This document shows, in pieces, positions 8,201 to 36,159 of a stretch of DNA of 64,000 nt. The position numbers were made by a program, and so were the translations under genes. The stretch's first letter is position 1. The number at the start of each line of letters is the position of its first letter. This DNA is from Petrosia ficiformis (lineage: Eukaryota; Porifera; Demospongiae; Haplosclerida; Petrosiidae), in contig OX345647.1 in NCBI GenBank assembly GCA_947044365.1, positions 4,218,501-4,282,500 on the forward strand, given 5' to 3'. Below the pieces are notes generated by a model, which saw nothing but the letters and a program-made list of their open reading frames with translations, searched no databases and was not told the DNA's origin.

Positions 8201-9757
8201 TCAGTTGCCCTCTTCATTGTTGCTAGACTCAGCTTCTGGTATTAGTCCAATGTTATCTACTTCCTCTTCATTGTTATTAATACTGCTAGAATCAGTTTGC
8301 TGTATTTGTCCAGTGCCCTCTTCATTGTTGCTAGACTCCACTTCTGGTATTAGCCCAATGTTATCTACTTCCTCTTCATTGTTATTAACAACGCTAGAAT
8401 CAGTTCGCTGTATTTGTTCAGTATTGCTTGCTTCATTAGTACTCCTTTCAATAATTAATTCGACATTTTCTATTTGTTCAGTGTTATTTGCTGCTTCTTC
8501 ATTGTTAGTACTAATGTATTCATTTGTTAGGTCAGTGCTGCTCGATTTCTCTTCAAAATAATTCCTTGAAGTAATCAATTCAACTTCATTTTCTTCCTGC
8601 AATGGGTTTTGATTGAGATTTTGATTACATTGAGTTTCATGTTCTGTTTGATTAAGCTTGGGTTTGCGTAACCAATAGTCTACAAGAACAATGAAGACAC
8701 CTCCAAAGTAAAACATACACAAGCCCAGTATCGCAATTCTAGTTCCATGATAAGCCTCAGGTTTACATGATGTACTTGTGCTGTTATCGGTACTGATATC
8801 ACATTGAAACAAACAACCCAATGGTTGTGTATTCTCTCCAACAAGTAAAAGAGCTGTAAAACTCCACATCATTATTATGACAACTGATGGTAGAGCTACC
8901 GATGTAAGCTTTTTTTTATTAGTTTTCAAAGCATAACTGATTGATGGGCTCAAAATAACTGCCAGTAACAAAGCAAATATAATAAGACTTGCAGAGTAGA
9001 GTAACCATGTTATTGCTAGTTCATGCATTGGACAAAAAAAATCTGATTGTAAAGGCAAATTTGCCACTGTGGAAAACCAAGCATCAAGCTCTACTATGAT
9101 TGAAAAGGAAAATGCAATGTTGCTCCAGCTTGATAAAGATTGTTTTCTAAGTTTCTCAGCTGATAATTCATTTCCCAGAAGTTGAATCTTAGTAGTAAAT
9201 GAAGGCGTCAATCTAAATAGCAATATAGCTATTATCAGTAGGACTGTACCAGCATCTTCAACTGTTTCTAAACATTGTTCATCACATTTGAGCTGCTCAT
9301 CAAGATTTCTAATGAGAGGAGTTATATCATCTCCTATCAAAAAGGCTGCACCAGCTATCAAGCTAATGACATGTGTTAACAAAGCCACAGTAATATCTAA
9401 TTTAGTTTTGGTTCTTGAAAATTCTCTACGATAGTAAATAACAGCCAAAATGATAATGAAAGAACACACAATGTACAGCCCTGTTGTGACAGCAAATGCA
9501 CTAACACTGATTTTTGATCGTAAAACAGAGTCAATTGGAATAAGGGATAGTACCTGTTCTATTATTGTGTTGGCAAGATTTAGTAACAAAAGTATAATCT
9601 TCAAAATAGTGTCGTTCACAAGTACATACACCTGAATAATTATAATGAATGTGGAATTAAGGTAATGTTAGGGGTCATACAATAATAACTTCATCCATCC
9701 ATGTATTCATGCATTTAGCAGGTTAATAACAGTATTTTTATCAATTTATCAAGCACT

Positions 9758-9805
<48 letters not shown>

Positions 9806-10287
9806 TATATATATACAGGTATATATATATATATATATGTAATATATATAGTATGCTAATAGGTCCTATACAAAATATAGGACCTGAGTTTGTGTCTGAC
9901 GATGTGATATAGCCCGAGCCTGCGAAAGCTATATCACATCCAAGGACATAAAACAAGGGTCCTATATTTTGTATATAGCATACTATATACAATATATTGT
10001 ATGATGGTGACATCTCCTGCATAGTGTGCACCTGGAAGGTCTATATAGAACTCACCACATCAAAGGGATGATGTCACCATCATACTATATATATATATAT
10101 ATATATCAGCATCCATTCAGTCATCCTTTATCTGCAGTATCCATACCTTCACTTTATTCATTCCTGCATATATCCTTCATTCATCCATAACAGTCTTTCC
10201 ATCCATATTCTATCATCAGTATTCATTCATCCATCCATCAATTTCATCTGACATGCCAACTATATATGCAAATCAACTTACAGCCAT
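8201..10287 (-). CDS. Array gene A: eight-pass membrane protein with long repeat-bearing tail
   Basis: Exon 1 at 10282-10287 (ATG GCT, then GTAAGT); exon 2 at 8201-9631 after TTCAG. The product is 478 residues. Not a family I recognise. Eight hydrophobic segments; lysine/arginine-rich loops after segments 2 and 6 and after segment 8 point to a cytosolic N- and C-terminus. The three extracellular loops carry Cys at about 118, 122, 202, 275, 279 and 291, matching the other array genes, plus an NST sequon near 285. Shared motifs: IGDDI, VELDAWFS, QPLGCLFQCD, HGTRI. Unlike B-G it has a ~145-residue acidic, Asn/Ser-rich cytosolic tail with a 36-residue unit present almost twice (about 412-478) and three [DE]xxxL[LI] motifs (ENVELI, DNIGLI twice). 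Most diverged member and last in the array. Confidence 0.85.
9755..10110. repeat. AT microsatellite plus ~150 bp hairpin element, copy 1
   Basis: (TA)n at about 9757-9840, then a near-perfect palindrome around GATGTGATATAGCCCGAGC (about 9845-9990) whose arms include ATAGTATGCTAATAGGTCCTA and its complement, then a second short inverted pair (GATGGTGACATC / GATGTCACCATC) and more (TA)n. All of this lies in the intron of gene A. A second copy is at 10890-11160. Confidence 0.75.
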
Positions 10288-10678
10288 CTTAGTTTGTTCT
10301 CTCATGAGCAAATGTATTTGTCTTTTCAATAGTATCTATGCAAATCTGTCAAGCCATATAGTAAGTGCCATTTCTTTTACTACCTAACATACACTGGTAT
10401 TACATCCTCAAAGTTAATAACTAAATGTATGACAGTATGTTGGTTTATAACAGTTGTGGTAAAATTCATTTGATTTGCTATTCCATTACAGTCATGCACC
10501 AGAAGACCACATCCTTGAAGCTAATGATTAATGTACAATAGTTAATGACAGTGAAACTTTAACACTATAAGAGTATTCTTTATTATTAGAATAGCTGCTG
10601 TCATTTTTAATGTATATTTGGCATGTATGTATGTCAAGTTGGTATGTGTATGTACTTCTGTTATTCATAAGTTGGTAT

Positions 10679-10806
10679 GTGTATGTATGTATGTATGTAT
10701 GTATGTATGTATGTATGTATGTATGTATGTAGTATGTATGTATGTATGTATGTGTATGTATGTATGTATGTATGTATGTATGTATGTATGCATATATATG
10801 TATGTA
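10679..10806. repeat. (TATG)n microsatellite
   Basis: About 30 TATG steps with few interruptions, ending at ACTGCAAAAATTAAAT. Open frames here translate to MYVCMYVC repeats and are not genes. Confidence 0.95.
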
Positions 10807-10808
10807 TG

Positions 10809-11152: not shown

Positions 11153-11202
<50 letters not shown>

Positions 11203-11988: not shown

Positions 11989-12007
11989 TATGTATGTACG
12001 TATGTAC

Positions 12008-12038
<31 letters not shown>

Positions 12039-12055
12039 TGTATGTACGTATGTAC

Positions 12056-12086
<31 letters not shown>

Positions 12087-12111
12087 TGTATGTATGTATG
12101 TACGTATGTAC

Positions 12112-12142
<31 letters not shown>

Positions 12143-12233
12143 TATGTATGTATGTATGTATGTATGCATGCATGTATTTATGTATGCATGTATGTATGTA
12201 TGTATGCATATGTATGTATGTATGTGTTATAGT
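11986..12233. repeat. (TATG)n microsatellite with ACGTATGTACATATG interruptions
   Basis: Long TATG tract directly following TTTTTGCAGTG. It contains three regularly spaced TACGTATGTACATATG variants, so part of it expanded as a longer unit. Confidence 0.95.
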
Positions 12234-13527
12234 TGTATCTAGGTAGTAGGTATGTATATATGTATGCTCCTTTTTTTGTATATGTGTAAATTAGTAAATT
12301 CGTTGTATACTGTTAAAATAACTAATCTTGATGATTTTTTTATTTCCAATATTTGGTAAAATAATATACATGTACTTCTCCTGTCTATAGATGTACAAAG
12401 AAGCAGTATAAATATTTTAGTTAAGTGATTATAGGTTTTCGAACCTTCTTTGTACATCTGATATGAGATAATAGATATGATAATTGATTATAATTAGTAA
12501 AAGTATGGTATTAATATATTATAATTGGTACAAGTATGGAAATCACATTAAACTAAACATGTAAACATGACTGTTCTTATTATGTAATATTATTTCGATT
12601 ACCTAACTACACTTTGCATAAGTGTGTTATAATTAAGAATGTAAACATTTTGTTACTATAGTACAGTTTACAAAACAATTACCTACTAAGGCAATGTACT
12701 ACAATAATGAAAATTACCATATCCTTTCTGCTAGATGTATGTAAATATAATATATAACATGCATACAAACTATGCACATATGTGTGTATATATAAGGGTG
12801 TATGTATGTAGATATTGATACACTATGTACATGTTATGCACATATTAAACCTGTAATAAAACATGATATTACCATGCAGGAGATTATGAAACTCCTAATT
12901 TACATCATGAACCCATTATCATAAATCAAACTAGCTATTGCTAATGCTTAGCTCAAAGATTATTGCTGTTCAAACACTGAACAAATGTTTGAAGTCTGAA
13001 ACTATTTGGAAAGAATTTGGATTCACCACTACTTTAAAAAAGCTAGAGTGGTCTGCTAGTTCAATGCTGGGAGTACAGCCCTGGCATTGCTTTCTTCAAA
13101 AAAATGCTGTTTGGGTGTGAACTGCAATATAATAACTAGTCTATCTGAAAAAAACTGCTGCTGCATTAACTAACTAAATATTCAATGTTCTTTTTTGCAT
13201 ATGATTATAGTTGTAATTCGATTATTTAGAACTGATATAATGTGCTTTATGTATTAGTTATAGGACCCTTTACATGCATTGATAATAACTAAACATTTAT
13301 TAATTTTGTTTTTCTTATTGCTAAAATAATAAAATTGATTGATATACCTATATAAACAAACAAGTTTGTAGGATTTATATCATATTAAGTCATAGATAGT
13401 ATTGACTATACTATATATGATTAAGTACAGCTGACATATCAATTGTAGGATATTATTTCCAGTCTAGTAACAATCACAATTTAAATTATTATGTATATTA
13501 TTGAACAAAACCATTAGTTATTATTTG

Positions 13528-14902
13528 TTAAGGATCAGCATCTTCCTTCTCCTGTACTTCACTAATACTGTTCAATTCCACACTTTTTATATCAGGCTGT
13601 TCATTTTCTTGTGAAGTTGTTGAATACAGCTGTCGCATTTTTTTAATCCAGTGGATAAAGATAGAAATAGACATTACAGCAAGTGGAATTAATGCAATAA
13701 ACAGAAGACCAATTCTTGTTCCATGTTGTGCTCCCTCATTGCAAACATTTGTGCGATTCTCAGTAGTGAAATCACACTCAAACAAACAACCTATTGGTTG
13801 ATCATTATCAGCTATTATTGCAACTCCTGAGCAAAACCAAATTACTACTGCAATTAAAGTTATTTTGAATATTTTACGACGTATCTGCTGTTTGCTCATT
13901 ATTGCTTCAATAACTCCTGGTGCAAAAATTACAGCCAGTACTATAGCCCATATAAGTATAGTAACACCATATAACACCCATAATATGTCTAGTTCGTTTG
14001 AGGGACAAAACGAATCTGAACTTGTTTGCAGACCAGATATAATACTGAACCAGGCATCCAATTGCACAATAAGAGCAATAGAGTGTCCAGCAGCTCTCCA
14101 AGGAGACCAAAAATAACCAAGGTTTACTCTAACATCGTATATTAAATTTGATACTGTCGTTGCCCCATGGATGAATGTTGGAACTATTCCAAAAAGCACC
14201 AAAGATATAACCAAAAGGGTTGATCCAGCATTTCCCACAGACTCAAGACATTTTGTACTACAACCGAGATCTGATTGGTAGTTTGTAACAAATTGAGCAA
14301 TATTGTCACCAATTAAATATGCCAGACCAGCAACTGTTGTGATTATATGACCAAGGATAACGATTAATAATCTCTTCTGCTCTTTCAATTTTGAAAATCT
14401 TTGTTTATTGATAATTGTACTCGAAACCGCGCCGATTGATATGACAATGTACAGGAGCAATGAAATTGCAAAAATGGATGTTACTGCCTTTGCATTTTGT
14501 GAATCTGAGAGTGGACTTACAAAGATTGCTTGATTAACGATTTGAGTCACAAGGTTCAATAGAATCAGAACAATCTTTTGTATATACTCATTCACAAATC
14601 CAACGAGCTAAAGATATATATAAATACTAATTGTGTGAATTTCATTGTACAAATTATTATATATTGTTGTTTTAGTTTGACAATAATGACCACTTTTAGT
14701 TATAGTTATAGTATGCCTAGTTTCTCAAACTTGTAGTTTAATTATCTAAAATAGTACTGGGCTTTCTAAAGGGTTTTAGTTTTAATTAACTACATATGTA
14801 TTAAAGTGTCCATTATACCATGAACATTTGTTATAACATGCAATCTACCTGTACATAATTATATTGATGTATACAAACTATGTATTGCAAACTCACCCCC
14901 AT
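13528..14902 (-). CDS. Array gene B: eight-pass membrane protein
   Basis: Exon 1 at 14897-14902 holds only ATG GGG before GTGAGT. Exon 2 at 13528-14607 starts after TTTAG with CTC GTT GGA TTT GTG. The product is 361 residues; the long exon has no in-frame ATG near its start, so the mini-exon is needed. Not a recognised family. Predicted segments near 13-31, 43-64, 81-101, 126-148, 177-195, 210-231, 249-268, 299-321. Basic loops NKQRFSKLKEQKR and SKQQIRRK and the tail fit a cytosolic N- and C-terminus. Extracellular loops carry Cys 118, 122, 203, 276, 280, 291 and an NRT sequon at 286. His in segment 3 (ILGHII) and Asp in segment 5 (QLDAWFS) are buried polar residues kept in all seven genes. 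Differs from gene D at one residue seen. Confidence 0.9.
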
Positions 14903-14980
14903 TGTTTAGCCTAAGACAGCTACACAGTATCTGATCACAGGTTTTGTTAATCCAGTTAGATAACTATGCACTATCCAAAT

Positions 14981-15010
14981 TTTCACTCTTATTCTAGAGA
15001 AAGGATACCA
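14981..15010 (-). promoter_or_regulatory. Conserved upstream block of gene B
   Basis: TTTCACTCTTATTCTAGAGA lies about 80-110 bp upstream of the mini-exon ATG. Similar strings stand at matching positions before genes E, F and G (30460-30490, 33251-33282, 36223-36254). Identical copies precede C (about 20199) and D (about 25425). Role not known; a promoter or 5' UTR element is the simplest idea. Confidence 0.45.
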
Positions 15011-15365
15011 TATATACACAAAACTGACAGTTGTAGTTCTTCTAATATGCATGTTTGGAATGATTGTAATTAAGTATCTCTAACTACTAGATTTAGTTAC
15101 AATATAGGACGTATGTTATTACCATTGTATTTGTTGAATCTGAGATTGGACTTACAAATGTACTTGATCATCAGATGTATGTATGTATATATGTATGTAT
15201 GAATGTAAGTATGTATGTATGTATGTATATAATATGTACATATATGTATGTATGCATGTATGTATGTATGAATGTCGAAGAATAACTTCATCAAATTATC
15301 ATCATCAATTTGTCCATGGATTCATGCATTAATAACGGTATTTCTATCAATTTATCCAGTACCTG

Positions 15366-15366
15366 C

Positions 15367-15428
<62 letters not shown>
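15366..15428. repeat. (TA)n microsatellite beside hAT-like element
   Basis: Pure TA run, shorter in the other two tandem units (about 20586-20625, 25812-25850). Confidence 0.95.
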
Positions 15429-15431
<3 letters not shown>

Positions 15432-15432
15432 T

Positions 15433-15662
15433 CAGAGTTTTTGATGCGTTTTGGACCATGGGTCAAATTGGCTCAACAATGGTTAGTGTGTGTGCCATTG
15501 GGAATACATCTTGAGCCAATTAACAAAGAGTTAATGCTGTTATATATAGTGACAATGTAATTGTAATTAACTGTGTCACTGGCCCAAAGAAAGAACTTTG
15601 CAGTGCTAAATAAGAAACTCTTTGGGCCAATGGTGTGCCATATGAGCTTATCAAAAACTCTG
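15433..15662. mobile_element. hAT-like MITE (CAGAGTTTTTGAT ends), unit 1 copy
   Basis: The left end CAGAGTTTTTGATGCG and right end (reverse complement CAGAGTTTTTGATAAGC) are terminal inverted repeats fitting YARNG. Copies in the other units are at 20629-20858 and 25855-26084. A fourth copy at 39320-39543 keeps a target-site duplication. Confidence 0.75.
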
Positions 15663-16844
15663 TTTCATACGCGTTGCTATTGTAAGTTTATGGGGAATTT
15701 TTGAGATGATAGGAAGTTAAAGAGGAATTTAATATTGTGGGAAGTTAAACTAAGTAATATGGATTGAACAAGTGGAATGTGAAATTTGATGTTTGTGTCA
15801 ATGGTGAGCTTATCCAAAACACTGATAATTATATATATAGGTGTGTAGGTATGTTTTCTGTTTTTAAATTAGTAAATTAGTTGTAGGTAATGACAAAGGA
15901 ACTGATTCTATTTATAGAAATACAGAAAAAGGAAATGGAATTCCTTGTTTGTGCACTTAGTATGTATGTTATATGCATAATATGTATTAATATTATCAAA
16001 TCTGTTTTAGTGATATTACATCATCCAATGTAAACAATGAAGAAGAAAATATATATTGTATGTATATGTGTATGCATGTATTGCATGTATGTATGTAGCA
16101 TGTTATTTGTAATTTGGTATATGTATACACATATGTATATACTATGTATGTATGTATGTATGTATGTATATACTATGTATGCATGTATGTATGTATGTAT
16201 GTATGTATGTATGTATGTTTACATGTATGTATGTATATATACTATGTATGTATGTGTATGTATGTATGTATGTGTTATGGTTGTATCTAGATATGTATAT
16301 ATGTAAGTATGTATGTATGTACTATATACTGTTTTAAGTTAGTAAATTAGTATATTAGTTGTATACTGCAAAAATTAATTATTGATTTGTTATATAGTAC
16401 AGTTGGAATTTGTAATATAATTGGTCATGTAAGTTGTTATAACTATGTGATAATCCAGTTTCAATTTACTTGTCCTGGTTAATAGATGTACAAATAAGTG
16501 GAATAAATATTTCAATTAAGTGATTGAAGGTTTCCAAACCTTCTTTGTGCATCTAATACGAGGTATCAGACATGATGATTGATTATGATTGGTATAAGTA
16601 TGTTATGATTGACCAATTACTACATTCTTGTAAATGTACTAACCATACATTAGTTATTATATTTACGTTTTGTACTGTAGGTAACTCTGTCTCAACTATA
16701 TATAGAAATAATGAAAAACGAAATGGAATTCTTGGTTTGTGTGCACTTCAAACTATAATATGTATATATTTATGTATATATTTATGTATGTAGGTATATA
16801 TGTATTATGTATCTATGTATGTATGTATGTATGTCTGCATGTAA

Positions 16845-17221
16845 ACTGCAAAAATGAAATAACCATTTTATTGGTTAGTAGTACTGTTGCATGGAATAGC
16901 ATGAGTTTCAATTTGTCATAGACGATGTTGTGGCTACATGCATGATGCATAATGTGCACCAAGTATTAAATTAAATTATCTGTTTTTGAGTTTACAAACC
17001 CCTTTGATGGCCAGATACAATTACATGTACTTTAGCCAGACACAATTACATGTACAATTGACATGAAATATGAGTAGACAGCACCCTCAAATTATAGTGC
17101 TTCAATTGTAATTAGGACAATGGTACAAGATGTATGCACTCTTGTACCAACTAATATTTAAATCCTTGCAACCACTAAATTAGTTATTTTTACTACATAC
17201 CTGTATTTTATTTTTGCAGTG
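16845..17221. mobile_element. CTGCAAAAA-ended MITE flanked by TATG tracts
   Basis: The left end CTGCAAAAATGAAATAACC and right end (reverse complement CACTGCAAAAATAAAATACA) are inverted. (TATG)n tracts abut both ends. Copies in the other tandem units start near 22046 and 27284. Confidence 0.7.
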
Positions 17222-17945
17222 TATATATGTAGGTAAGTATGTATGTATGTATGTATGTATGTAGGTATGTATGTATGTACATATGTACATATGTACTTAT
17301 GTGCTTATGTACATATGTATGTATGAAAGTAACAGGCTTTAATTTAATAGTATAAACCATGTTTATAGTTACCTAGTTACCATATCCATAGTTACTTAGA
17401 CGATGACTTCAAGTAATTGATTATAAATATTTTATAATGTATGATGTTTGAAATACACTTTAATTATCACTTCTTTCAATAATTTTTATAATGAGTAATT
17501 ATTCTAATGTGTGAAATTCACACAATGTAAAGTGATAATTATAACAGCTTATATAGTCACATGATTTAAATTGGTTAAACCCCTCTTTGTGGGTTACCAC
17601 ACCATTTGTAATATTCAATTAGTACACAATTTAATATATATCATATTTCAAAACAATTGCCATATACATTTGACTGCAATGTATGTAAATATGTTTGTAC
17701 ATAAGTATGTATATGTGTAGGTATGTATTTTGTATATAATTATATATATATGCATGCTTAAGTATTGCCATATCTGTGTATGTATTATGTAAGAGTGTAT
17801 ACATGTACATATTGATACACTGCCACTAATTGGTCTTTCATGTAGTCAGTCAGTCCTACTATTGGTCATTTTATTAAGGAACAGTGGTGGTCTTGGGGTT
17901 AGGTGCTGAGGGTTCCACCCTGCCATCATCATTACTTTCTCCAAA

Positions 17946-20584
17946 ACAATAATGAAAATTACCATATCCTTTCTGCTAGATGTATGTAAATATAATATAT
18001 AACATGCATACAAACTATGCACATATGTGTGTATATATAAGGGTGTATGCATGTAGATATTGATACACTATGTACATGTTATGCACATATTAAACCTGTA
18101 ATAAAACATGATATTACCATGCAGGAGATTATGAAACTCCTAATTTACATCATGAACCCATTATCATAAATCAAACTAGCTATTGCTAATGCTTAGCTCA
18201 AAGATTATTGCTGTTCAAACACTGAACAAATGTTTGAAGTCTGAAACTATTTGGAAAGAATTTGGATTCACCACTACTTTAAAAAAGCTAGAGTGGTCTG
18301 CTAGTTCAATGCTGGGAGTACAGCCCTGGCATTGCTTTCTTCAAAAAAATGCTGTTTGGGTGTGAACTGCAATATAATAACTAGTCTATCTGAAAAAAAC
18401 TGCTGCTGCATTAACTAACTAAATATTCAATGTTCTTTTTTGCATATGATTATAGTTGTAATTCGATTATTTAGAACTGATATAATGTGCTTTATGTATT
18501 AGTTATAGGACCCTTTACATGCATTGATAATAACTAAACATTTATTAATTTTGTTTTTCTTATACCTATATAAACAAACAAGTTTGTAGGATTTATATCA
18601 TATTAAGTCATAGATAGTATTGACTATACTATATATGATTAAGTACAGCTGACATATCAATTGTAGGATATTATTTCCAGTCTAGTAACAATCACAAAAT
18701 AGATTATTATGTATATTATTGAACAAAACCATTAGTTATTATTTGTTAAGGATCAGCATCTTCCTTCTCCTGTACTTCACTAATACTGTTCAATTCCACA
18801 CTTTTTATATCAGGCTGTTCATTTTCTTGTGAAGTTGTTGAATACAGCTGTCGCATTTTTTTAATCCAGTGGATAAAGATAGAAATAGACATTACAGCAA
18901 GTGGAATTAATGCAATAAACAGAAGACCAATTCTTGTTCCATGTTGTGCTCCCTCATTGCAAACATTTGTGCGATTCTCAGTAGTGAAATCACACTCAAA
19001 CAAACAACCTATTGGTTGATCATTATCAGCTATTATTGCAACTCCTGAGGAAAACCAAATTACTACTGCAATTAAAGTTATTATGAATATTTTACGACGT
19101 ATCTGCTGTTTGCTCATTATTGCTTCAATAACTCCTGGTGCAAAAATTACAGCCAGTACTATAGCCCATATAAGTATAGTAACACCATATAACACCCATA
19201 ATATGTCTAGTTCGTTTGAGGGACAAAACGAATCTGAACTTGTTTGCAGACCAGATATAATACTGAACCAGGCATCTAATTGCACAATAAGAGCAATAGA
19301 GTGTCCAGCAGCTCTCCAAGGAGACCAAAAATAACCAAGGTTTACTCTAACATCGTATATTAAATTTGATACTGTCGTTGCCCCATGGATGAATGTTGGA
19401 ACTATTCCAAAAAGCACCAAAGATATAACCAAAAGGGTTGATCCAGCATTTCCCACAGACTCAAGACATTTTGTACTACAACCGAGATCTGATTGGTAGT
19501 TTGTAACAAATTGAGCAATATTGTCACCAATTAAATATGCCAGACCAGCAACTGTTGTGATTATATGACCAAGGATAACGATTAATAATCTCTTCTGCTC
19601 TTTCAATTTTGAAAATCTTTGTTTATTGATAATTGTACTCGAAACCGCACCGATTGATATGACAATGTACAGGAGCAATGAAATTGCAAAAATGGATGTT
19701 ACTGCCTTTGCATTTTGTGAATCTGAGAGTGGACTTACAAAGATTGCTTGATTAACGATTTGAGTCACAAGGTTCAATAGAATCAGAACAATCTTTTGTA
19801 TATACTCATTCACAAATCCAACGAGCTAAAGATATATATAAATACTAATTGTGTGAATTTCATTGTACAAATTATTATATATTGTTGTTTTAGTTTGACA
19901 ATAATGACCACTTTTAGTTATAGTTATAGTATGCCTAGTTTCTCAAACTTGTAGTTTAATTATCTAAAATAGTATTGGGCTTTCTAAAGGGTTTTAGTTT
20001 TAATTAACTACATATGTATTAAAGTGTCCATTATACCATGAACATTTGTTATAACATGCAATCTACCTGTACATAATTATATTGATGTATACAAACTATG
20101 TATTGCAAACTCACCCCCATTGTTTAGCCTAAGACAGCTACACAGTATCTGATCACAGGTTTTGTTAATCCAGTTAGATAACTATGCACTATCCAAATTT
20201 TCACTCTTATTCTAGAGAAAGGATACCATATATACACAAAACTGACAGTTGTAGTTCTTCTAATATGCATGTTTGGAATGATTGTAATTAGGTATCTCTA
20301 ACTACTAGATTTAGTTACAATATAGGACGTATGTTATTACCATTGTATTTGTTGAATCTGAGATTGGACTTACAAATGTACTTGATCATCAGATGTATGT
20401 ATGTATATATGTATGTATGAATGTAAGTATGTATGTATGTATGTATATAATATGTACATATATGTATGTATGCATGTATGTATGTATGAATGTCGAAGAA
20501 TAACTTCATCAAATTATCATCATCAATTTGTCCATGGATTCATGCATTAATAACGGTATTTCTATCAATTTATCCAGCACCTGC

Positions 20585-20627
<43 letters not shown>

Positions 20628-23144: not shown

Positions 23145-25810
23145 ACAATAATGAAAATTACCATATCCTTTCTGCTAGATGTATGTAAATATAATATATA
23201 ACATGCATACAAACTATGCACATATGTGTGTATATATAAGGGTGTATGTATGTAGATATTGATACACTATGTACATGTTATGCACATATTAAACCTGTAA
23301 TAAAACATGATATTACCATGCAGGAGATTATGAAACTCCTAATTTACATCATGAACCCATTATCATAAATCAAACTAGCTATTGCTAATGCTTAGCTCAA
23401 AGATTATTGCTGTTCAAACACTGAACAAATGTTTGAAGTCTGAAACTATTTGGAAAGAATTTGGATTCACCACTACTTTAAAAAAGCTAGAGTGGTCTGC
23501 TAGTTCAATGCTGGGAGTACAGCCCTGGCATTGCTTTCTTCAAAAAAATGCTGTTTGGGTGTGAACTGCAATATAATAACTAGTCTATCTGAAAAAAACT
23601 GCTGCTGCATTAACTAACTAAATATTCAATGTTCTTTTTTGCATATGATTATAGTTGTAATTCGATTATTTAGAACTGATATAATGTGCTTTATGTATTA
23701 GTTATAGGACCCTTTACATGCATTGATAATAACTAAACATTTATTAATTTTGTTTTTCTTATTGCTAAAATAATAAAATTGATTGATATACCTATATAAA
23801 CAAACAAGTTTGTAGGATTTATATCATATTAAGTCATAGATAGTATTGACTATACTATATATGATTAAGTACAGCTGACATATCAATTGTAGGATATTAT
23901 TTCCAGTCTAGTAACAATCACAATTTAAATTATTATGTATATTATTGAACAAAACCATTAGTTATTATTTGTTAAGGATCAGCATCTTCCTTCTCCTCTA
24001 CTTCACTAATACTGTTCAATTCCACACTTTTTATATCAGGCTGTTCATTTTCTTGTGAAGTTGTTGAATACAGCTGTCGCATTTTTTTAATCCAGTGGAT
24101 AAAGATAGAAATAGACATTACAGCAAGTGGAATTAATGCAATAAACAGAAGACCAATTCTTGTTCCATGTTGTGCTCCCTCATTGCAAACATTTGTGCGA
24201 TTCTCAGTAGTGAAATCACACTCAAACAAACAACCTATTGGTTGATCATTATCAGCTATTATTGCAACTCCTGAGCAAAACCAAATTACTACTGCAATTA
24301 AAGTTATTTTGAATATTTTACGACGTATCTGCTGTTTGCTCATTATTGCTTCAATAACTCCTGGTGCAAAAATTACAGCCAGTACTATAGCCCATATAAG
24401 TATAGTAACACCATATAACACCCATAATATGTCTAGTTCGTTTGAGGGACAAAACGAATCTGAACTTGTTTGCAGACCAGATATAATACTGAACCAGGCA
24501 TCCAATTGCACAATAAGAGCAATAGAGTGTCCAGCAGCTCTCCAAGGAGACCAAAAATAACCAAGGTTTACTCTAACATCGTATATTAAATTTGATACTG
24601 TCGTTGCCCCATGGATGAATGTTGGAACTATTCCAAAAAGCACCAAAGATATAACCAAAAGGGTTGATCCAGCATTTCCCACAGACTCAAGACATTTTGT
24701 ACTACAACCGAGATCTGATTGGTAGTTTGTAACAAATTGAGCAATATTGTCACCAATTAAATATGCCAGACCAGCAACTGTTGTGATTATATGACCAAGG
24801 ATAACGATTAATAATCTCTTCTGCTCTTTCAATTTTGAAAATCTTTGTTTATTGATAATTGTACTCGAAACCGCGCCGATTGATATGACAATGTACAGGA
24901 GCAATGAAATTGCAAAAATGGATGTTACTGCCTTTGCATTTTGTGAATCTGAGAGTGGACTTACAAAGATTGCTTGATTAACGATTTGAGTCACAAGGTT
25001 CAATAGAATCAGAACAATCTTTTGTATATACTCATTCACAAATCCAACGAGCTAAAGATATATATAAATACTAATTGTGTGAATTTCATTGTACAAATTA
25101 TTATATATTGTTGTTTTAGTTTGACAATAATGACCACTTTTAGTTATAGTTATAGTATGCCTAGTTTCTCAAACTTGTAGTTTAATTATCTAAAATAGTA
25201 TTGGGCTTTCTAAAGGGTTTTAGTTTTAATTAACTACATATGTATTAAAGTGTCCATTATACCATGAACATTTGTTATAACATGCAATCTACCTGTACAT
25301 AATTATATTGATGTATACAAACTATGTATTGCAAACTCACCCCCATTGTTTAGCCTAAGACAGCTACACAGTATCTGATCACAGGTTTTGTTAATCCAGT
25401 TAGATAACTATGCACTATCCAAATTTTCACTCTTATTCTAGAGAAAGGATACCATATATACACAAAACTGACAGTTGTAGTTCTTCTAATATGCATGTTT
25501 GGAATGATTGTAATTAGGTATCTCTAACTACTAGATTTAGTTACAATATAGGACGTATGTTATTACCATTGTATTTGTTGAATCTGAGATTGGACTTACA
25601 AATGTACTTGATCATCAGATGTATGTATGTATATATGTATGTATGAATGTAAGTATGTATGTATGTATGTATATAATATGTACATATATGTATGTATGCA
25701 TGTATGTATGTATGAATGTCGAAGAATAACTTCATCAAATTATCATCATCAATTTGTCCATGGATTCATGCATTAATAACGGTATTTCTATCAATTTATC
25801 CAGCACCTGC

Positions 25811-25853
<43 letters not shown>

Positions 25854-28091
25854 TCAAAGTTTTTGATGCGTTTTGGACCATGGGTCAAATTGGCTCAACA
25901 ATGGTTAGTGTGTGTGCCATTGGGAATACATCTTGAGCCAATTAACAAAGAGTTAATGCTGTTATATATAGTGACAATGTAATTGTAATTAACTGTGTCA
26001 CTGGCCCAAAGAAAGAACTTTGCAGTGCTAAATAAGAAACTCTTTGGGCCAATGGTGTGCCATATGAGCTTATCAAAAACTCTGTTTCATATGCAGTTGC
26101 TATTGTAAGTTTATGGGGAATTTTTGAGATGATAGGAAGTTAAAGAGGAATTTAATATTGTGGGAAGTTAAACTAAGTAATATGGATTGAACAAGTGGAA
26201 TGTGAAATTTGATGTTTGTGTCAATGGTGAGCTTATCCAAAACACGGTGTGTAGGTATGTTTTCTGTTTTTAAATTAGTAAATTAGTTGTAGGTAATGAC
26301 AAAGGAACTGATTCTATTTATAGAAATACAGAAAAAGGAAATGGAATTCCTTGTTTGTGCACTTAGTATGTATGTTATACGCATAATATGTATTAATATT
26401 ATCAAATCTGTTTTAGTGATATTACATCATCCAATGTAAACAATGAAGAAGGAAATATATATTGGGTTACTGTTATTTGTGTACATACTATATATTATGT
26501 ATATGTGTATGCATGTATTGCATGTATGTATGTAGCATGTTATTTGTAATTTGGTATATGTATACACGTATGTATATACTATGTATGTATGTATGTATGT
26601 ATGTATATACTATGTATGCATGTATGTATGTATGTATGTATGTATGTATGTATGTTTACATGTATGTATGTATATATACTATGTATGTATGTGTATGTAT
26701 GTATGTATGTGTTATGGTTGTATCTAGATATGTATATATGTAAGTATGTATGTATGTACTATATACTGTTTTAAGTTAGTAAATTAGTATATTAGTTGTA
26801 TACTGCAAAAATTAATTATTGATTTGTTATATAGTACAGTTGGAATTTGTAATATAATTGGTCATGTAAGTTGTTATAACTATGTGATAATCCAGTTTCA
26901 ATTTACTTGTCCTGGTTAATAGATGTACAAATAAGTGGAATAAATATTTCAATTAAGTGATTGAAGGTTTCCAAACCTTCTTTGTGCATCTAATACGAGG
27001 TATCAGACATGATGATTGATTATGATTGGTATAAGTATGTTATGATTGACCAATTACTACATTCTTGTAAATGTACTAACCATACATTAGTTATTATATT
27101 TACGTTTTGTACTGTAGGTAACTCTGTCTCAACTATATATAGAAATAATGAAAAACGAAATGGAATTCTTGGTTTGTGTGCACTTCAAACTATAATATGT
27201 ATATATTTATGTATATATTTATGTATGTAGGTATATATGTATTATGTATCTATGTATGTATGTATGTATGTCTGCATGTAAACTGCAAAAATGAAATAAC
27301 CATTTTATTGGTTAGTAGTACTGTTGCATGGAATAGCATGAGTTTCAATTTGTCATAGACGATGTTGTGGCTACATGCATGATGCATAATGTGCACCAAG
27401 TATTAAATTAAATTATCTGTTTTTGAGTTTACAAACCCCTTTGATGGCCAGATACAATTACATGTACTTTAGCCAGACACAATTACATGTACAATTGACA
27501 TGAAATATGAGTAGACAGCACCCTCAAATTATAGTGCTTCAATTGTAATTAGGACAATGGTACAAGATGTATGCACTCTTGTACCAACTAATATTTAAAT
27601 CCTTGCAACCACTAAATTAGTTATTTTTACTACATACCTGTATTTTATTTTTGCAGTGTATATATGTAGGTAAGTATGTATGTATGTATGTATGTATGTA
27701 GGTATGTATGTATGTACATATGTACATATGTACTTATGTGCTTATGTACATATGTATGTATGAAAGTAACAGGCTTTAATTTAATAGTATAAACCATGTT
27801 TATAGTTACCTAGTTACCATATCCATAGTTACTTAGACGATGACTTCAAGTAATTGATTATAAATATTTTATAATGTATGATGTTTGAAATACACTTTAA
27901 TTATCATTTCTTTCAATAATTTTTATAATGATCTAATGTGTGAAATTCACACAATGTAAAGTGATAATTATAACAGCTTATATAGTCACATGATTTAAAT
28001 TGGTTAAACCCCTCTTTGTGGGTTACCACACCATTTGTAATATTCAATTAGTACACAATTTAATATATATCATATTTCAAAACAATTGCCA
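23145..28091. repeat. Segmental tandem duplication, unit 3 (truncated)
   Basis: Matches units 1 and 2 until ACAATTGCCA at 28091; the last ~284 bp of the unit are missing. The sequence that follows (28092-28135) instead resembles the region just upstream of gene B's mini-exon (GTTCTTCTAATATGCATG near 15030). Contains gene D. No other gene seen. Confidence 0.93.
23972..25346 (-). CDS. Array gene D: eight-pass membrane protein
   Basis: Exon 1 at 25341-25346 (ATG GGG), exon 2 at 23972-25051; 361 residues. The protein matches gene B except for SEVEEK instead of SEVQEK in the cytosolic tail. All six loop cysteines, the NRT sequon and the buried His and Asp are present. Confidence 0.9.
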
Positions 28092-29224
28092 GAGATACAA
28101 CTCTGGTAGTTATAGTTCTTCTAATATGCATGTGTGGAATGTTAATAGCCCTAGTTTTCCTAGGGTGAAAGCCATTCCAATGCTGTTTACATTGAAATGG
28201 TATATAGTAAAGCATGTATGCATGCATATATGTATATACATGTATGCATATGCATGTATGTATGTATGTATGTATGTATGTGTATGTGTGTATGTACACT
28301 GTAAAAACGAATGGGTTATTTTATCCCTCATTTCACTTCCTCCTGAGACTATATAAATCAATACTGCTTTCTTGTCTAGCTAGATAATGTTTACAAGATA
28401 GCTATATATTTATTTCTTTTGATTTTGACCTATGTATAAAGTACATACCATAATAAAGAATGGCAAAAAAAAAAACAATATAATGTACATGCACTTTAAA
28501 CATGTAAATCTCATAATAATTACAAATGAGCTTGTTGTTTTCGCAGATGTTGGAATTGGGAATACTAATAATACACCACAGGTTGTACCTATATAATACT
28601 ATGCTACGTATATAGCTAGCTATAGGGGTATATAGCTACATTTTATTAGTATATATGTTTGTAACCATATGCCTTGACATGACATGTACTTTATACTAGT
28701 CAAGATCAAATGAACTGTGACTTGTAAATATTACCTAATGTATACAATATTATATACCGGTATTATTATAGTTATTAATCAATTTATAATCATAAATAGT
28801 ATGTAATTACATACATGTGATCCAGCTATGATTAACAAAGCAGCAAAACTGATTGTTATGAGTTAAAAGGTCAAGTGAATCCTATACGTTAACCTCCTGT
28901 GTTAGTACCATCCCAACCTTGTTGATTTATTTTGTGGCTTTTTGAAATCCTTACATCTTCAATTATTTTTGTTTTTTCTTATTCTTTATGTACTAGAGAT
29001 GATGTGTTTTATTAATAATCATTAATAATCAAACATTTTTTGACTCATTGCATAATTATTTATATAACTATATATATAGACAAACCAGTTTATAGAATTA
29101 TATCCTATTAAGCACAGCTGTTTGTTCTAGATTATTATTTTTCAGTCTAGAAATAATCACAAACTAATATTAACTATCATTACTTATTTATTGAACCAAA
29201 CAATTAGTTATTATTTGTTAAGGA
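28092..29224. other. Spacer between duplication unit 3 and gene E
   Basis: No gene supported. Holds a TATG/CATG-rich tract at about 28205-28295 ending ACTGTAAAAACG, and AT-rich unique sequence. Open frames over the tract are repeat artefacts. Confidence 0.6.
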
Positions 29225-30366
29225 TCAGCATTTTCCCTTCTCCTCTACTTCACTAATACTGTTTAATTCCACATTTTTTATATCAGGCTGTTTATTTTCT
29301 TGTGAAGTTGTTGAATACAGCTGTCGCATTTTTTTAATCCAGTGGACAAAGATAGAAAAAGACATTACAGCAAGTGGAATTAATGCAATAAACAGAAGAC
29401 CAATTCTTGTTCCATGTTGTGCTACCTCCTTGCAAACATTTGTGCGATTCTCAGTAGTGAAATCACACTCAAACAAACAACCTATTGGTTGATCATTATC
29501 AGCTATTATTGCAACTCCTGAGGAAAACCAAATTACTACTGCAATTAAAGTTATTTTGAATATTTTACGATATATCTGCTGTTTGCTCATTATTGCTTCA
29601 ATAATTCCTGGTGCAAAAATTACAGCCAGTACTATACCCCATATAACAATAGTAACACCATATAACACCCATAATATGTCTAGTTCATTTGAAGGACAGA
29701 ACGAATCTGAATTTGTTTGCAGACCGGATATAATACTGAACCAGGCATCCAATTGCACAATAAGAGCAATAGAGTGTCCAGCAGCTCTCCAAGGAGACCA
29801 CAAATAACCAAGGTTTACTTTAACATCGTATACTAAATTTGATACTGTCGTTGCCCCATGGATGAATGTTGGAACTATTCCAAAAAGCACCAAAGATATA
29901 ACCAAAAGGGTTGATCCAGCATTCCTCACAGACTCAAGACATCTTGTACTACAACCGAGATCCGATTGGTAGTTTGTAACAAATTGAGCAATATTGTCAC
30001 CAATTAAATATGCCAGACCAGCAACTGTAATGATAATATGACCAAGGATCACAATTAATAATCTCTTCTGCTCTTTCAATCTTGCAAATCTTTGTTTATT
30101 GATAATTGTACTCGAAATTGCACCGATTGATATGACAATGTACAGGAGCAATGAAATTGCAAAAATGGCTGTTACTGCCTTTGTATTTTGTGAATCTGAG
30201 AGTGGACTTACAAAGATTGCTTGATTAATGAGTTGAGTCACAAGGTTCAATAGAATCAGAACGATCTTTTGTATATATTCATTCACAAATCCGATGAGCT
30301 AAAGACAAATAATGATTGTGTGAATTCAATTATACAATGAACATATATACTGCAACTCACCCCCAT
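29225..30366 (-). CDS. Array gene E: eight-pass membrane protein
   Basis: Exon 1 at 30361-30366 (ATG GGG), exon 2 at 29225-30298 starting CTC ATC GGA TTT GTG; 359 residues. Roughly 30 substitutions from B-D by eye, mostly conservative and in membrane segments. All six loop cysteines, the NRT sequon and the LDAWFS and QPIGCLFECD motifs are kept. The C-terminus is changed by a small indel: it ends EEKGKC and stops, where B-D end EKEDADP, although the downstream DNA still matches. Confidence 0.9.
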
Positions 30367-31971: not shown

Positions 31972-33151
31972 TTAATAATTAATATCTTCCTTCGATGATT
32001 TCTCCTCTACCTCGCTAAAACTCTTTAATTCTGCTTCTTTGATATCAGAATGTTCGTTTTCTTGTGGAGTTGATGAATACAACTGTTGGATCTTTTTAAT
32101 CCAATGAATAAGGAGAGAAGAAGAGATTACAGCAAGTGGAATTAAGGCAAGAAACAGAAGACCAATTCTTGTTCCATGTTGAGCTCCCTCATTACAAACA
32201 TTTGTACGATTCCCAGTATTGAAATCACACTCAAATAAACAACCTATTGGTTGACTGTTGTCAGCTATTATTGCAAATGCCGAAGAAAACCAAATTGATA
32301 TTGCAATAAAAGCTAAGAAGAAGATTTTACGAAATTTCTTATCATTGTCCTTTATTGCTTTGATAGTTCCTGGTGCAAAGAGTACAGCCAGTACTACAGC
32401 CCATAAGAATATAGTAATACAATATAACACCCACAGTATTGTTAGGTCATGTTGAGGACAAAACGAACTTGATTTAGCTGGTAGGTCAGCTACAGCACTG
32501 AACCAAGCATCCAATTCCACTATAAGAGCAATAGAGTGTGCAGTAGTCATCCGACGAGACCACGAATGATCAGATTCCTCAGAAACATTGTATATTAAAT
32601 CTGATACTGTTATAGCCCCACTAAGAAATGTCGGAGCTATTCCAAAAAGCAGCAAAGATATAATCAAAAGGGATGTTCCAACATTTCCTACAGCCTCCAG
32701 GCATGCCGTATCACAATTGAGCTCTGATCGGTAGGTTGCAAACAATGCACTAATATTGTCACCAATTAAATATGCCAGACCAGCAACTGTTGTAACAATA
32801 TGGCCAAGTATAACAATTAATAATCTCTTCTGACTTCTTAACTCTTTAAATCTTCTTTTATTGATAATTTTACTCAAAATTACACCAACTGATAAGGCAA
32901 GGTACAGGAATAAAGTAATTCCAAAAATGGATGTTATTGCATTTGTGTTTGTTGAATCCGAGAGTGGACTTACAAAGATTGCCTGACCAGTAATTTCAGT
33001 TACAATGTTTAAAAGAACCAGAAAAATCTTTTGTGCATGCTCCTAAAGTTATATAAATAATAATAGCTTTATTAAACAATCAGTATTTTGTAATGTACAG
33101 CCTCTACATGCAATATTGATTTGCAACAAACTGTATCATACTCACCTCCAT
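31972..33151 (-). CDS. Array gene F: eight-pass membrane protein
   Basis: Exon 1 at 33146-33151 (ATG GAG, GTGAGT), exon 2 at 31972-33042 starting GAG CAT GCA CAA AAG; 358 residues. An ATG-based scan of the long exon alone would miss about the first 55 residues of exon 2. Closest to G. Loop motifs ELNCDTACLEAVGN, SSFCPQ and QPIGCLFECDFNTGN are present with all six cysteines. The NRT sequon is kept. The tail ends KSSKEDINY, longer and more acidic than in B-D. Confidence 0.9.
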
Positions 33152-34665
33152 TGCTTGCCAATAAAGCTAATATCTCAAGTGTTTTACTGAGTCAGGCTAG
33201 TTAGTCCTTGGCAACTGTACTGAGACACTATAACACACTAGCTAGCCTTCCAGTCACTCTTGTTCTTGTGATATCTAACAGTAGTAGCTGTAATGATCAT
33301 CTCACGCTATATTCGAGCTTTAATTAACCACAAATATTACAATTAGAGTGGAGGTGTACCAGATTTTGTCACACCACAAGAACTTTTTGCTTCCATGTTT
33401 GTAAGCAATTTGAGCAGGCAAGTATATAGATGCAAAATTACAAAAGATTATCAACAAAGGGATTGACAGATGCATTTTTGGAAATATGACAACTTGTGTG
33501 ATTTTGAACTGACCATTTTAGCTCCAAAATGCACCATAATGACCGACCATAAAATTTCAGAACAAGAAGACTGCTACACCTAAAATTTAGTAACCCTGAA
33601 ATTATTAAAGTTAATTAAAGTATAATTTAATTAACTAATAGCTTGAGAAACTAGTCATACTATAACTATTGTGATAGTTTTGACGACAAAAGACCAGTTA
33701 TAGTTATAGTTAACTAAAACAACACTACTATATGAATCAATTTTCTTTATTACAAAGTAAAGAAATAATTAAAATATTCAAACTATGTGTTACATTTATA
33801 AATTTGATATCCCATAATCTTAAGCAAATACATATGTAGTTAACAAAATTTTCAGGTGGGTGTAGTAATTTCTAACCAATCACATTGGAGTCGTCATGTA
33901 AGCTACGTATGTAGGTTTCAGAGCAGTGATGTGATGTAACTGTACAGGCCACAGTAAAATTTGTTCCTGTGTACATAGTAGTTAGCCCTGTCAGGGCTTT
34001 GTTCTTCAACTTCTCAAAAACTGTTTTAATGAAAATGATAATATATCCTCAGGCTCTATGAAGAACACAATAGTATACACTTTACATCTGTGAACTCAAT
34101 ACCCTCAATCCCATTGTATGTATGTATATATGCATGTAGATACGTACATATGTATGTATGTGCACGTATTATATTTTTCAATGTATGTATGTATTTATGT
34201 ATGTATGTATATATGTATGTGCATGTTTTGTTAAGCAGGAACTTGTGAGCTGATGTATACACACTATATGAATATGCACATGCAGTGAAATCCTTAATAT
34301 TACATTATGTATGTATATCATGACTCATTATCCTAAATCAAAAAGAACTATATAATTATATCACTTTATTTAATGCAATGGTTGAAACTGAACCACTTAG
34401 ACTGAGTAGCTTGGAACTGAAACATCCCCACTTCAATGCCCTGCCTACAGTCAATGATGATTAGTTATGGTATTGATATTTTATAGAAGAATATTCCACT
34501 CATGTTTTTGTTTATTTTTGACCCCACCATTCATGACAAATATTTACAACAAAAACTTCTAGGCAATAATATAGTAATTATTTAACAGGCTATATAACAC
34601 ACATTACATAGGATATTTTTTTTCAGTATAATTATTTAAATAATCCCAAAATAGCAACAATTCTT
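33152..34665. other. Spacer between genes F and G
   Basis: Holds the gene F upstream block (33251-33282), a partial TTGTTTTAGTT foldback element (about 33600-33732) and short TATG tracts (about 34115-34230). No gene supported. Confidence 0.6.
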
Positions 34666-36159
34666 TTAATAATTAATATCTTGCTTTGATGATTTCTCCT
34701 CAACTTCACTAAAACTCTTCAACTTTGTTTCATTGATATCAGAATGTTTGTTTTCTTGTGGAGTTGATGAATACAGCTTTCGAATCTTTTTAATCCAATG
34801 AATAAGGAGAGAAGAAGAGATTACAGCAAGTGGAATTAACGCTAGAAGCAGAAGACCAATTCTTGTTCCATGTTGAGCTCCCTCATTACAAACATTTGTA
34901 CGATTCCCAGTATTGAAATCACATTCAAATAAACAACCTATTGGTTGACTGTTGTCAGCTATTATTGCAAATGCTGAGGAAATCCAAATTGATATTGCCA
35001 AAAAAACTACTAAGAAGATTTTACGAAGTTTCTTATCGTTGTCTGTTATTGCTTTAATAATTCCTGGTGTAAAGAGTACAACCAGTACTACAGCCCATAA
35101 GAATATAGTAATACAATATAACACCCACAGTATTGTTAGGTCATGTTGAGGACAAAACGAACTTGATTTAGCTGGTAGGTCAGCTACGGCACTGAACCAA
35201 GCATCCAATTCCACTATAAGAGCAATAGAGTGTGCAGTAGTCATCCGACGAGACCACAAATGATCAGATTCCTCAGAAACATTGTATATTAAATCTGATA
35301 CTGTTATAGCCCCACTAAGAAATGTCGGAGCTATTCCAAAAAGCAGCAAAGATATAATCAGAAGGGCTGTTCCAACATTTCCTACAGCCTCCAGGCATGC
35401 CGTATCACAATTGAGCTCTGATCGGTAGGTTGCAAACAATGCATTAATATTGTCACCAATTAAATATGCCAGACCAGCAACTGTTGTGATAATATGGCCA
35501 AATATGACAATTAATAATCTCTTCTGACTTCTTAACTTTTTAAATCTTCTTTTATTGATAATTTTACTCAAAATTACACCAACTGATAAGGCAAGGTACA
35601 GGAATAAAAAAATTCCAAAAATGGTTGATATTGCATTTGTGTTTGTTGAATCCGAGAGTGGACTTGCAAAGATTGCCTGACCAATGATTGCATTTACAAT
35701 GTTCAACAGAATCAGAAAAATCTTTTGTGCATGCTCCTAAAGTTGTACAAGTAATAATAGACTTCAAGTATCCTAAATCAAGTCACTAGTACAAGAAGTA
35801 CATGTACAATCGACATTTTGTACTATAAGGTCTCTACAGTTAGGGTTGGGCAATGTTGACAGTTTTGTGACTCACAAATATTGCAATTACTGATTGATAC
35901 TGTTTAGCAAAAATAGGCTCATTTTTAAAAAAGAGTACAAGTCTGATTCTTGTTTTGAGAGTGTATAGCTCAAGATTAAGTGTTCCTGTATTTTTCAGCT
36001 GCATATTTTATCCCTTTTTTGATATGATTACCTATTAGCAGTAAGACAACATTTTGTCATTGCAATAATATTGCCAGACCAATCATGTGTGCAATGTTTA
36101 TGATTATTGCCCAACCCTACTCTAAAGCAACAAACTATATATCATATATTCACCCCCAT
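34666..36159 (-). CDS. Array gene G: eight-pass membrane protein
   Basis: Exon 1 at 36154-36159 (ATG GGG, donor GTGAAT), exon 2 at 34666-35736; 358 residues. Very similar to gene F through the whole length, with the same six loop cysteines, the LDAWFSAVADLP and HGTRI motifs and an acidic tail ending KSSKQDINY. The intron holds a hAT-like MITE at 35841-36119. It is the first gene of the array in transcription order and lies head-to-head with DMAP1, with about 880 bp between the starts. Confidence 0.9.
35841..36119. mobile_element. hAT-like MITE (TAGGGTTGGGCAAT ends) in gene G intron
   Basis: Left end TAGGGTTGGGCAATGTT; the right end, reverse-complemented, is TAGGGTTGGGCAATAATC: perfect inverted repeats for 14 bases fitting YARNG. 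The flanks CTCTACAG (plus one base) and CTCTAAAG are a near 8 bp duplication. Confidence 0.75.

Follow-up and report, generated by a model that had tools for sequence, protein, structure and literature searches.

A tandem array of seven intact paralogous genes occupies positions 8201..36159 on the minus strand of the window, that is, the whole 64,000-nucleotide stretch analyzed here, and lies on chromosome 12 of Petrosia ficiformis. The count, strand, and extent agree with the original prediction, whose end coordinate, 36159, is the start of the predicted exon 1 of copy 1, and the second-exon frame of each copy runs open to a stop codon. Every copy follows the same gene plan, namely, a predicted exon 1 of two codons (ATG Gnn) followed by a single large exon 2, with a predicted GT donor and a predicted phase-0 AG acceptor in all seven. 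The two-codon exon 1 was found at all 11 loci examined, one of which is a broken copy, and the phase-0 acceptor at all 10 loci checked, including those of the two most divergent subfamilies. The features of the array are as follows.

34666..35736, minus strand: copy 1 exon 2, 356 codons plus stop, encoding the eight hydrophobic segments as well as the cytosolic tail
36154..36159, minus strand: copy 1 predicted exon 1 (ATG GGG), donor GTGAAT, weaker than GTGAGT and the donors of the other copies
31972..33042, minus strand: copy 2 exon 2, open frame
33146..33151, minus strand: copy 2 predicted exon 1 (ATG GAG)
29225..30298, minus strand: copy 3 exon 2, open frame
30361..30366, minus strand: copy 3 predicted exon 1 (ATG GGG)
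23972..25051, minus strand: copy 4 exon 2, open frame
25341..25346, minus strand: copy 4 predicted exon 1 (ATG GGG)
18746..19825, minus strand: copy 5 exon 2, open frame
20115..20120, minus strand: copy 5 predicted exon 1 (ATG GGG)
13528..14607, minus strand: copy 6 exon 2, open frame
14897..14902, minus strand: copy 6 predicted exon 1 (ATG GGG)
8201..9631, minus strand: copy 7 exon 2, from a divergent subfamily whose cytosolic tail is long, acidic, and repeated
10282..10287, minus strand: copy 7 predicted exon 1 (ATG GCT), donor GTAAGT
12701..28360, unstranded: three head-to-tail 5.2-kb units with copies 6, 5, and 4, 98.4 to 99.6% mutually identical over aligned bases (111–224 gap columns excluded)

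Copies 4, 5, and 6 are thus nearly one gene, which brings the number of distinct sequences in the array to five (1, 2, 3, 4/5/6, and 7). Copy 2 is 91% identical to copy 1, copy 3 is 92 to 93% identical to copies 4 to 6, and copy 7 shares 34% identity with copy 2. Unequal crossing-over is likely to have enlarged the array, the last rounds of which would have recently duplicated a 5.2-kb unit. The P. ficiformis genome contains at least 12 copies of the family, 10 of them intact, and broken copies are present on chromosomes 1 and 6.

The predicted architecture is that of an eight-span membrane protein. A 19-residue Kyte-Doolittle scan gave eight hydrophobic peaks in six of the seven copies and nine in copy 7, where the additional peak likely arose because the scanned stretch took in 36 bases ahead of the acceptor. 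Loop charges agree with the placement of both ends in the cytosol by the positive-inside rule, which is a prediction. The six loop cysteines that had been described (CxxxC; C; CxxxC...C) proved invariant in a 20-row alignment that includes all seven array copies, and the motifs LDAWFS, QP(I/L)GCLF(E/Q)CD, and HGTRI are each present in 7/7 copies. The N-glycosylation sequon of the last outer loop likewise occurs in all seven copies and in 20 of the 24 rows of a larger alignment (A4). These proteins are accordingly predicted to have disulfides that brace an outer cap, as well as an N-glycan in the last outer loop.

Conservation was counted over 23 of the 24 rows of A4, one fragment being dropped, with residues numbered as in copy 5. 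Asp184 of segment 5 is found in 23/23 rows, and position 267, at the outer end of segment 7, is Asp or Glu in all 23. Asp101 of segment 3 is kept in 19 of the 21 rows with data and is Gly in the other two. Cysteines 201, 274, 278, and 289 are present in 23/23 rows, and cysteines 116 and 120 in 22/22 rows with data. Mean identity across six subfamily representatives is highest in segment 5 (58%) and the last outer loop (55%) and lowest in the three cytosolic loops (23–35%). Segment 1 with its flanks has 51% mean identity, and its Asn18 is present in 19/19 rows with data.

The proposal that this family is unrecognized was borne out at the level of Pfam, PDB sequences, and a protein database. No Pfam entry matched above its cut-off in scans of 5, 16, and 10 members (19 distinct members, E ≤ 10), scans in which the HMMER filters discard most weak matches; the matches below the cut-off disagree from member to member. 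PDB sequences gave no match at E ≤ 10. A mycoplasma 12-span protein of NCBIfam matched 7 of 24 members at an E-value of 2e-5, but it scored 23 bits against a cut-off of 70, and we took the match as composition bias. This match also illustrates the degree to which E-values can mislead for this family. Two AlphaFold models, the second of which was computed from the first 323 codons of copy 5 exon 2, reached pLDDT values of 52 and 56, and Foldseek searches with these low-pLDDT models returned mixed helical proteins (polycystin, TRP, BAR domains, GPCRs, and others), which we do not read as relatives. In a database of 5.8 billion proteins, at least 16 proteins matched, all of them family members among the matches listed, and open relatives with 88 to 91% identity were present for three of the family's own subfamilies. 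Pattern matches in viral contigs (34) and prokaryote genomes (97) yielded no confirmed relative, and a viral or bacterial origin was therefore set aside. Among the matches listed, the titles, abstract openings, and passages of the sponge gene-family and eight-transmembrane literature, including PMC12716839, held no description of the family. We conclude with high confidence that the family is real and is unnamed in the searches run.

The copies had been proposed to be probably used. This claim stands as far as the open frames and the uniform predicted splice sites support it; pairwise dN/dS estimates lie below 1, although for three of the five bootstrapped pairs the 95% range extends to include 1. 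In a neutral simulation of 5000 genes, 1.1% remained stop-free at 118 substitutions, half of the difference between copies 1 and 5, and 0.04% at 237 substitutions, the whole of that difference. Stop-free frames being so rare, the open frames exceed what chance would give, and they point to selection on the array genes. It is highly improbable, in view of these numbers for the deep subfamilies, that the array consists of silent pseudogenes left open through recent duplication only: although copies 4 to 6 are recent, broken copies exist elsewhere in the genome, and the dN/dS range takes in 1 in three of the five bootstrapped pairs, the predicted splice sites are kept in 7/7 copies, and the close database relatives of three subfamilies are open as well.

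The original prediction had also raised a chemosensory, immune, or self-recognition role, which the places where the copies differ do not support. Outer loops do not look hypervariable; in three of five comparisons their omega is the lowest of all parts (0.36–0.41, 95% ranges below 1), and in the other two it is 0.66 and 0.77, with ranges including 1. The cytosolic parts diverge most between copies. The argument is weak, since the ranges overlap and outer loops differ from membrane parts more in dS than in dN. That outer-loop dN is close to membrane-part dN is itself a reason to treat the argument against self-recognition as weak. We consider it very unlikely that these genes serve self/non-self recognition, with diversifying selection acting on the outer surface of their products: tandem, recent duplicates encoding predicted surface proteins are what such genes would look like, but the outer loops are small, and their omega pattern weakens this reading.

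A rather doubtful, though more serious, candidate is that the array encodes surface chemoreceptors, which would detect small molecules of waterborne or symbiont origin, the expansion being a detector set. The recent local expansion is in keeping with this, as are the elevated omega estimates obtained when copies 1-2 are compared with copies 3-6 (0.68–0.83) and the variable cytosolic loops and tails, which could couple to different partners. On the other hand, amino-acid changes are not enriched in the outer loops, although a ligand pocket could lie between helices; the near identity of copies 4 to 6 suggests dosage rather than diversity; and no receptor family was matched by Pfam in the 19 distinct members.

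We tentatively favor another possibility, with low confidence in the functional assignment, namely, that this tandem array of seven intact genes from an unnamed eight-span family encodes a surface cation channel or carrier, so that its proteins may move or sense ions at the cell surface. The invariant Asp of segment 5, together with the near-invariant acidic residues in segment 3 and at the outer end of segment 7, would line a single cation site; this site would sit under the disulfide-braced outer cap, and regulation would depend on the variable loops and tails of the cytosolic side. A protein that spans the membrane an even number of times, keeps both ends inside, and lacks a large outer domain is more in keeping with a channel or carrier than with a G-protein-coupled receptor. 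Several results count against this assignment. No channel or carrier family was among the Pfam matches of the 19 distinct members, and no internal repeat between helix pairs, of a kind common among carriers, was detected (hhalign probability below 1% in 6/6 comparisons). Conservation showed no helix-face bias, apart from a weak one in segment 6 (P 0.03, from eight tests in all). The two rows with Gly for Asp101, the copy at 48 Mb on chromosome 1 and P0006, have an adjoining Lys. Both structure models stay below pLDDT 57. A bolder version, which we hold to be quite unlikely, is a new eight-helix fold of the sponge lineage, that is, a disulfide-capped cation channel or carrier that would be unrelated to described transporters and receptors and amplified with a fixed two-codon leader exon.

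The cysteines could also serve a protein without transport. In such a membrane organizer or junction protein, the disulfide-braced outer loops would bind partners within their own membrane or across to the adjacent one, much as tetraspanins or gap-junction proteins do. Connexins have both ends in the cytosol and six conserved outer-loop cysteines, features that the array proteins have in common with them; few parts are as well conserved as the last outer loop, and Pfam gave weak Connexin matches (E 0.07–0.13). However, the array proteins have eight predicted spans instead of four, these Connexin matches are far below the cut-off (12.4 bits against 31.3), CCG and the claudin motif are absent from 24/24 rows, and the invariant Asp of segment 5 would be unexpected in a pure scaffold. 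We judge this role unlikely.

Similarly unlikely, in our view, is that the family is a highly diverged member of a known one (a GPCR-type 7TM protein with an extra helix, TMEM26, an XK-related protein, or another) beyond the reach of sequence searches. The small number of relatives (effective number about 7; about 2 by the hhalign count) limits the power of profiles, which leaves room for this reading. If segment 1 were a cleaved signal peptide, cysteines 120 and 201 would match the position of the GPCR disulfide, but the conserved segment 1 is unlike a signal peptide. Class A GPCRs have seven spans and an outside N-terminus, whereas the array proteins have eight segments with positive-inside loops. 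DRY and NPxxY are absent from 24/24 rows, as is the insect-type gustatory receptor motif TYhxxxxxQF of the last span, and 7tm_1 matched far under its cut-off (E 0.09–0.34). A WxP string occurs in 12 of 24 rows, in the second cytosolic loop and outside the helices, and P0009 carries a second one. XK-related proteins (PF09815) gave no Pfam match at E ≤ 10 in the scans of the 19 distinct members.

Microbial rhodopsin provided a sub-threshold lead, PF01036 (type-1 rhodopsin) reaching 20 bits, where the cut-off is 24.6, in a single subfamily and recurring in none of six segment-preserving shuffles, out of eight made. With a rhodopsin profile built from 81 ORFs and two further sequences, however, none of the 24 real members exceeded 5.2 bits and none of 29 unrelated multipass ORFs exceeded 5.1, and the 24 reversed members reached as much as 16.7. 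The hhalign score against type-1 rhodopsin was 14.6, compared with 18.4 reversed and, over 30 shuffles, an average of 15.4 and a maximum of 20.4, and the probability against bacteriorhodopsin was 0.1%. We rejected a microbial rhodopsin with one extra helix, since reversed members outscore real ones and hhalign does no better than with shuffles. Several residues can be aligned by eye to microbial rhodopsin. Type-1 rhodopsins bind retinal through a Lys of the last helix, whereas the array proteins have no conserved Lys within segment 8, the conserved Lys residues being at its cytosolic end. A search of the sponge genome for PF01036, run without a positive control, found nothing.

Sponges sit close to the root of the animal tree, and many sponge genes have no described counterpart. 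The eight-pass family is a clean case of this kind, being a well-defined, multi-copy membrane set with a fixed gene plan and invariant residues to mutate, and related subfamilies exist among other database proteins. If the proteins are channels or carriers, as we tentatively prefer, they would exemplify an animal lineage adding a new membrane protein; if they are receptors, sponges would have a surface sensor of a new kind.

Among named families, TMEM26 (PF09772) resembles the array proteins in its eight predicted spans, its length of about 350 residues, its positive loop between spans 2 and 3, its long outer loop between spans 3 and 4, and its acidic residues toward the outer ends of spans 3, 5, and 7. 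The likeness was read by eye from a sequence that we take to be human TMEM26 and that scores 410 bits against PF09772; the cysteine pattern and motifs of the array family are absent from it. TMEM26 did not appear in the Pfam scans of the 19 distinct members at E ≤ 10, with the same library that scores this TMEM26 sequence at 410 bits, and hhalign gave a probability of 0.1% against that single sequence, a comparison of low power with one sequence on one side. A search of the sponge genome for TMEM26, also run without a positive control, found nothing, and identity with TMEM26 was dropped as unsupported by Pfam or hhalign. Nematode and insect chemoreceptors, which form tandem arrays of lineage-restricted multipass receptors, differ from the present genes in that the latter lack the gustatory-receptor motif and an excess of outer-loop change; the two nevertheless share the local head-to-tail expansion of multipass membrane genes.

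All seven paralogues of the array lie on the minus strand and have open frames 356 to 488 codons long, in line with the original observation of intact genes on a single strand. Copies 1 and 2 share 91% identity, copy 3 is 92–93% identical to copies 4–6, and identity among copies 4–6 is 99% or more; copy 7 is only distantly related (34% identity to copy 2). The 5.2-kb units carrying copies 4–6 are 98.4–99.6% identical when aligned bases are counted, and each contains one TGTA/TATG tetranucleotide tract of about 260 bases, with similar tracts elsewhere in the window:

16057-16321, TGTA/TATG tract of a 5.2-kb unit
21270-21532, TGTA/TATG tract of a 5.2-kb unit
26496-26758, TGTA/TATG tract of a 5.2-kb unit
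10680-10808, similar tract elsewhere
11987-12266, similar tract elsewhere

The predicted gene plan is common to all copies: exon 1 comprises two codons (ATG Gnn) followed by a GT donor, the intron spans roughly 60 to 650 bases, and one large exon 2 begins at a phase-0 AG acceptor. A single occurrence of ATGGnnGT[AG]A lies within 1.5 kb upstream at 11 of 11 loci examined (chance expectation, by our own arithmetic, about 0.05 per locus). A phase-0 acceptor was present at all 10 of these loci that were checked for one, a set without the broken member of the 41.7-Mb group on chromosome 1; neither set included the copy on chromosome 6. Because the pattern was designed after sight of copies 2 and 3, the fair test comes from the loci on chromosome 1 and from copy 7, in which it was present. 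The TAG or TAA flagged in copies 1 and 2 by genome searches reflects a match overrunning the acceptor; the frames proper are open.

The window occupies 4,218,501-4,282,500 of contig C12 of the searched genome (191,215,263 bases, 29 contigs), that of a haplosclerid sponge. The published description of the Petrosia ficiformis assembly odPetFici3.1 gives 191,273,811 bases in 35 scaffolds, the longest of 63,279,122 bases, and C1, C6, and C12 correspond to its chromosomes 1, 6, and 12 (PMC12648040). The genome was searched with four family members, each of which returned an identical locus set, and at least 12 copies were found, 10 of the 12 intact. Outside the array, chromosome 1 has a group of three copies near 41.7 Mb, two of them intact and the third broken, as well as one intact copy with an adjoining decayed fragment at 48.0 Mb, and chromosome 6 has a single broken copy; a match on C18 (25% identity, E 0.37) was left out of the count. 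The third copy of the 41.7-Mb group consists of two overlapping frames adjoining an intact copy (L011:3298-4580). About 1.2 kb from the broken chromosome 6 copy is a transposase frame (L012:1821-3125; DDE_Tnp_1_7, E 4e-67), which we take to be of piggyBac type.

The array is flanked by ordinary genes: on one side Pfam names a PAF acetylhydrolase together with an ELO elongase, and on the other a DEAD-box helicase. Since the Pfam library names these neighbors, they serve as a control for the absence of names in the eight-span family. A 312-codon minus-strand open frame (48131-49069), which by eye has hydrophobic segments and a middle part that is charged and resembles a coiled coil, matched no Pfam family at E ≤ 0.001. 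Dense tandem repeat arrays lie beyond copy 1:

37477-38859, 107-base unit
40419-41113, 6-base unit
42983-43541, 62-base unit
45733-46707, 26-base unit

Hydropathy bore out the eight hydrophobic segments, and counts of Lys+Arg versus Asp+Glu agreed with the proposed cytosolic location of both ends: they place the C-terminus inside, along with the loops that follow segments 2 and 6, the loop after segment 4 being of mixed charge. In the 24-row alignment minus one fragment row, the six conserved Cys, all in outer loops as first described, were present in 22/22 or 23/23 rows with data. Asp184 in segment 5, Trp186, Gln270-Pro271, and Gly273 (copy 5 numbering) are also kept, either Asp or Glu occupies position 267 in 23/23 rows, and Asp101 of segment 3 is found in 19/21. 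About ten residues are missing ahead of segment 3 in the 48-Mb subfamily, so the segment 3 Asp may lie within the membrane. Long acidic tails with repeats mark the 41.7-Mb group and copy 7. In the tail of copy 7 (8206-8422) a 108-base repeat occurs twice (92% match), and in P0015, a database protein 91% identical to copy 7, the matching peptide occurs four times; tail length thus differs between relatives.

A tentative reading of this anatomy is a channel or carrier for cations: the predicted product is small, keeps both termini in the cytosol, and has no large domain outside, its outer cap would be braced by cysteines, and three odd-numbered helices have acidic residues in their outer half or close to it, all of which would suit such a function. 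A chemoreceptor or a membrane organizer is nearly as likely as a channel or carrier.

Nei–Gojobori counts gave an omega of 0.43 for copies 1–2, 0.52–0.53 for copy 3 versus copies 4–6, 0.68–0.83 between copies 1–2 and copies 3–6, and 0.75–0.85 for the 48-Mb copy versus copies 1–6; values for copy 7 or the 41.7-Mb group versus the rest were 0.31–0.43 with synonymous sites near saturation, and copies 4–6 differ too little among themselves for an estimate. The bootstrapped range of overall omega was below 1 in two of five pairs (0.49–0.96 and 0.49–0.98) and spanned 1 in three. By region, three pairs of copies 1/2 versus 3/5 gave 0.36–0.41 for outer loops (ranges within 0.16–0.88), 0.72–0.90 for membrane parts, and 0.83–1.20 for cytosolic parts, with overlapping ranges. 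Since dN was alike in outer loops (0.20–0.21) and membrane parts (0.19–0.22; cytosolic, 0.33–0.37), the omega gap between these two comes mainly from dS. Slightly different region limits left the order unchanged for copies 1/5 (outer 0.51, membrane 0.81, cytosolic 1.20); for copies 1/2 they gave 0.29, 0.68, and 0.20, respectively, the cytosolic value being lowest. Versus the 48-Mb copy, outer-loop omega was 0.66 and 0.77, and cytosolic values were unreliable. In a neutral simulation, 1.1% of genes were stop-free after 118 substitutions (half of the copy 1–copy 5 difference) and 0.04% after 237 (all of it). From these omega values and the simulation, the open frames appear to be maintained, under constraint that is relaxed or shifting, and the outer surface appears not to be hypervariable, which makes the self-recognition role suggested at first somewhat less likely.

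Three queries against 5.8 billion proteins (E ≤ 10; candidates scored: best 7999, best 7996, and all 154) gave at least 16 distinct matches (13, 15, and 11 per query). All 16 listed are family members, each with E below 1e-20, with no weak-match tail among those listed; two were flagged as the window's own proteins. Own and database members pair at 88–91% identity (copy 7 with P0015, the 41.7-Mb copies with P0009 or P0016, and copies 1/2 with P0001), which suggests that the family is present in at least one further related sponge. In most subfamilies of a 24-row tree, which omits four fragments or near-copies and in which two long branches meet, database members adjoin own members; the pair P0010 and P0011 is without a close own member. 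The database proteins resemble single-exon predictions and the database may cover animal proteomes only in part, so the family may be spread more widely among animals.

The family was proposed to be an unrecognized one, and it matched none of the known families tested. That it is an unrecognized relative of a known family is nearly as likely as the channel or carrier reading. Structure models from 16-row and 24-row alignments were both poor, and fold matches thus carry no weight either way. The most heavily tested assignment, microbial rhodopsin, did not hold up when reversed sequences, unrelated multipass proteins, and shuffles served as controls. Of the known families compared, TMEM26 comes nearest in plan but not in sequence.
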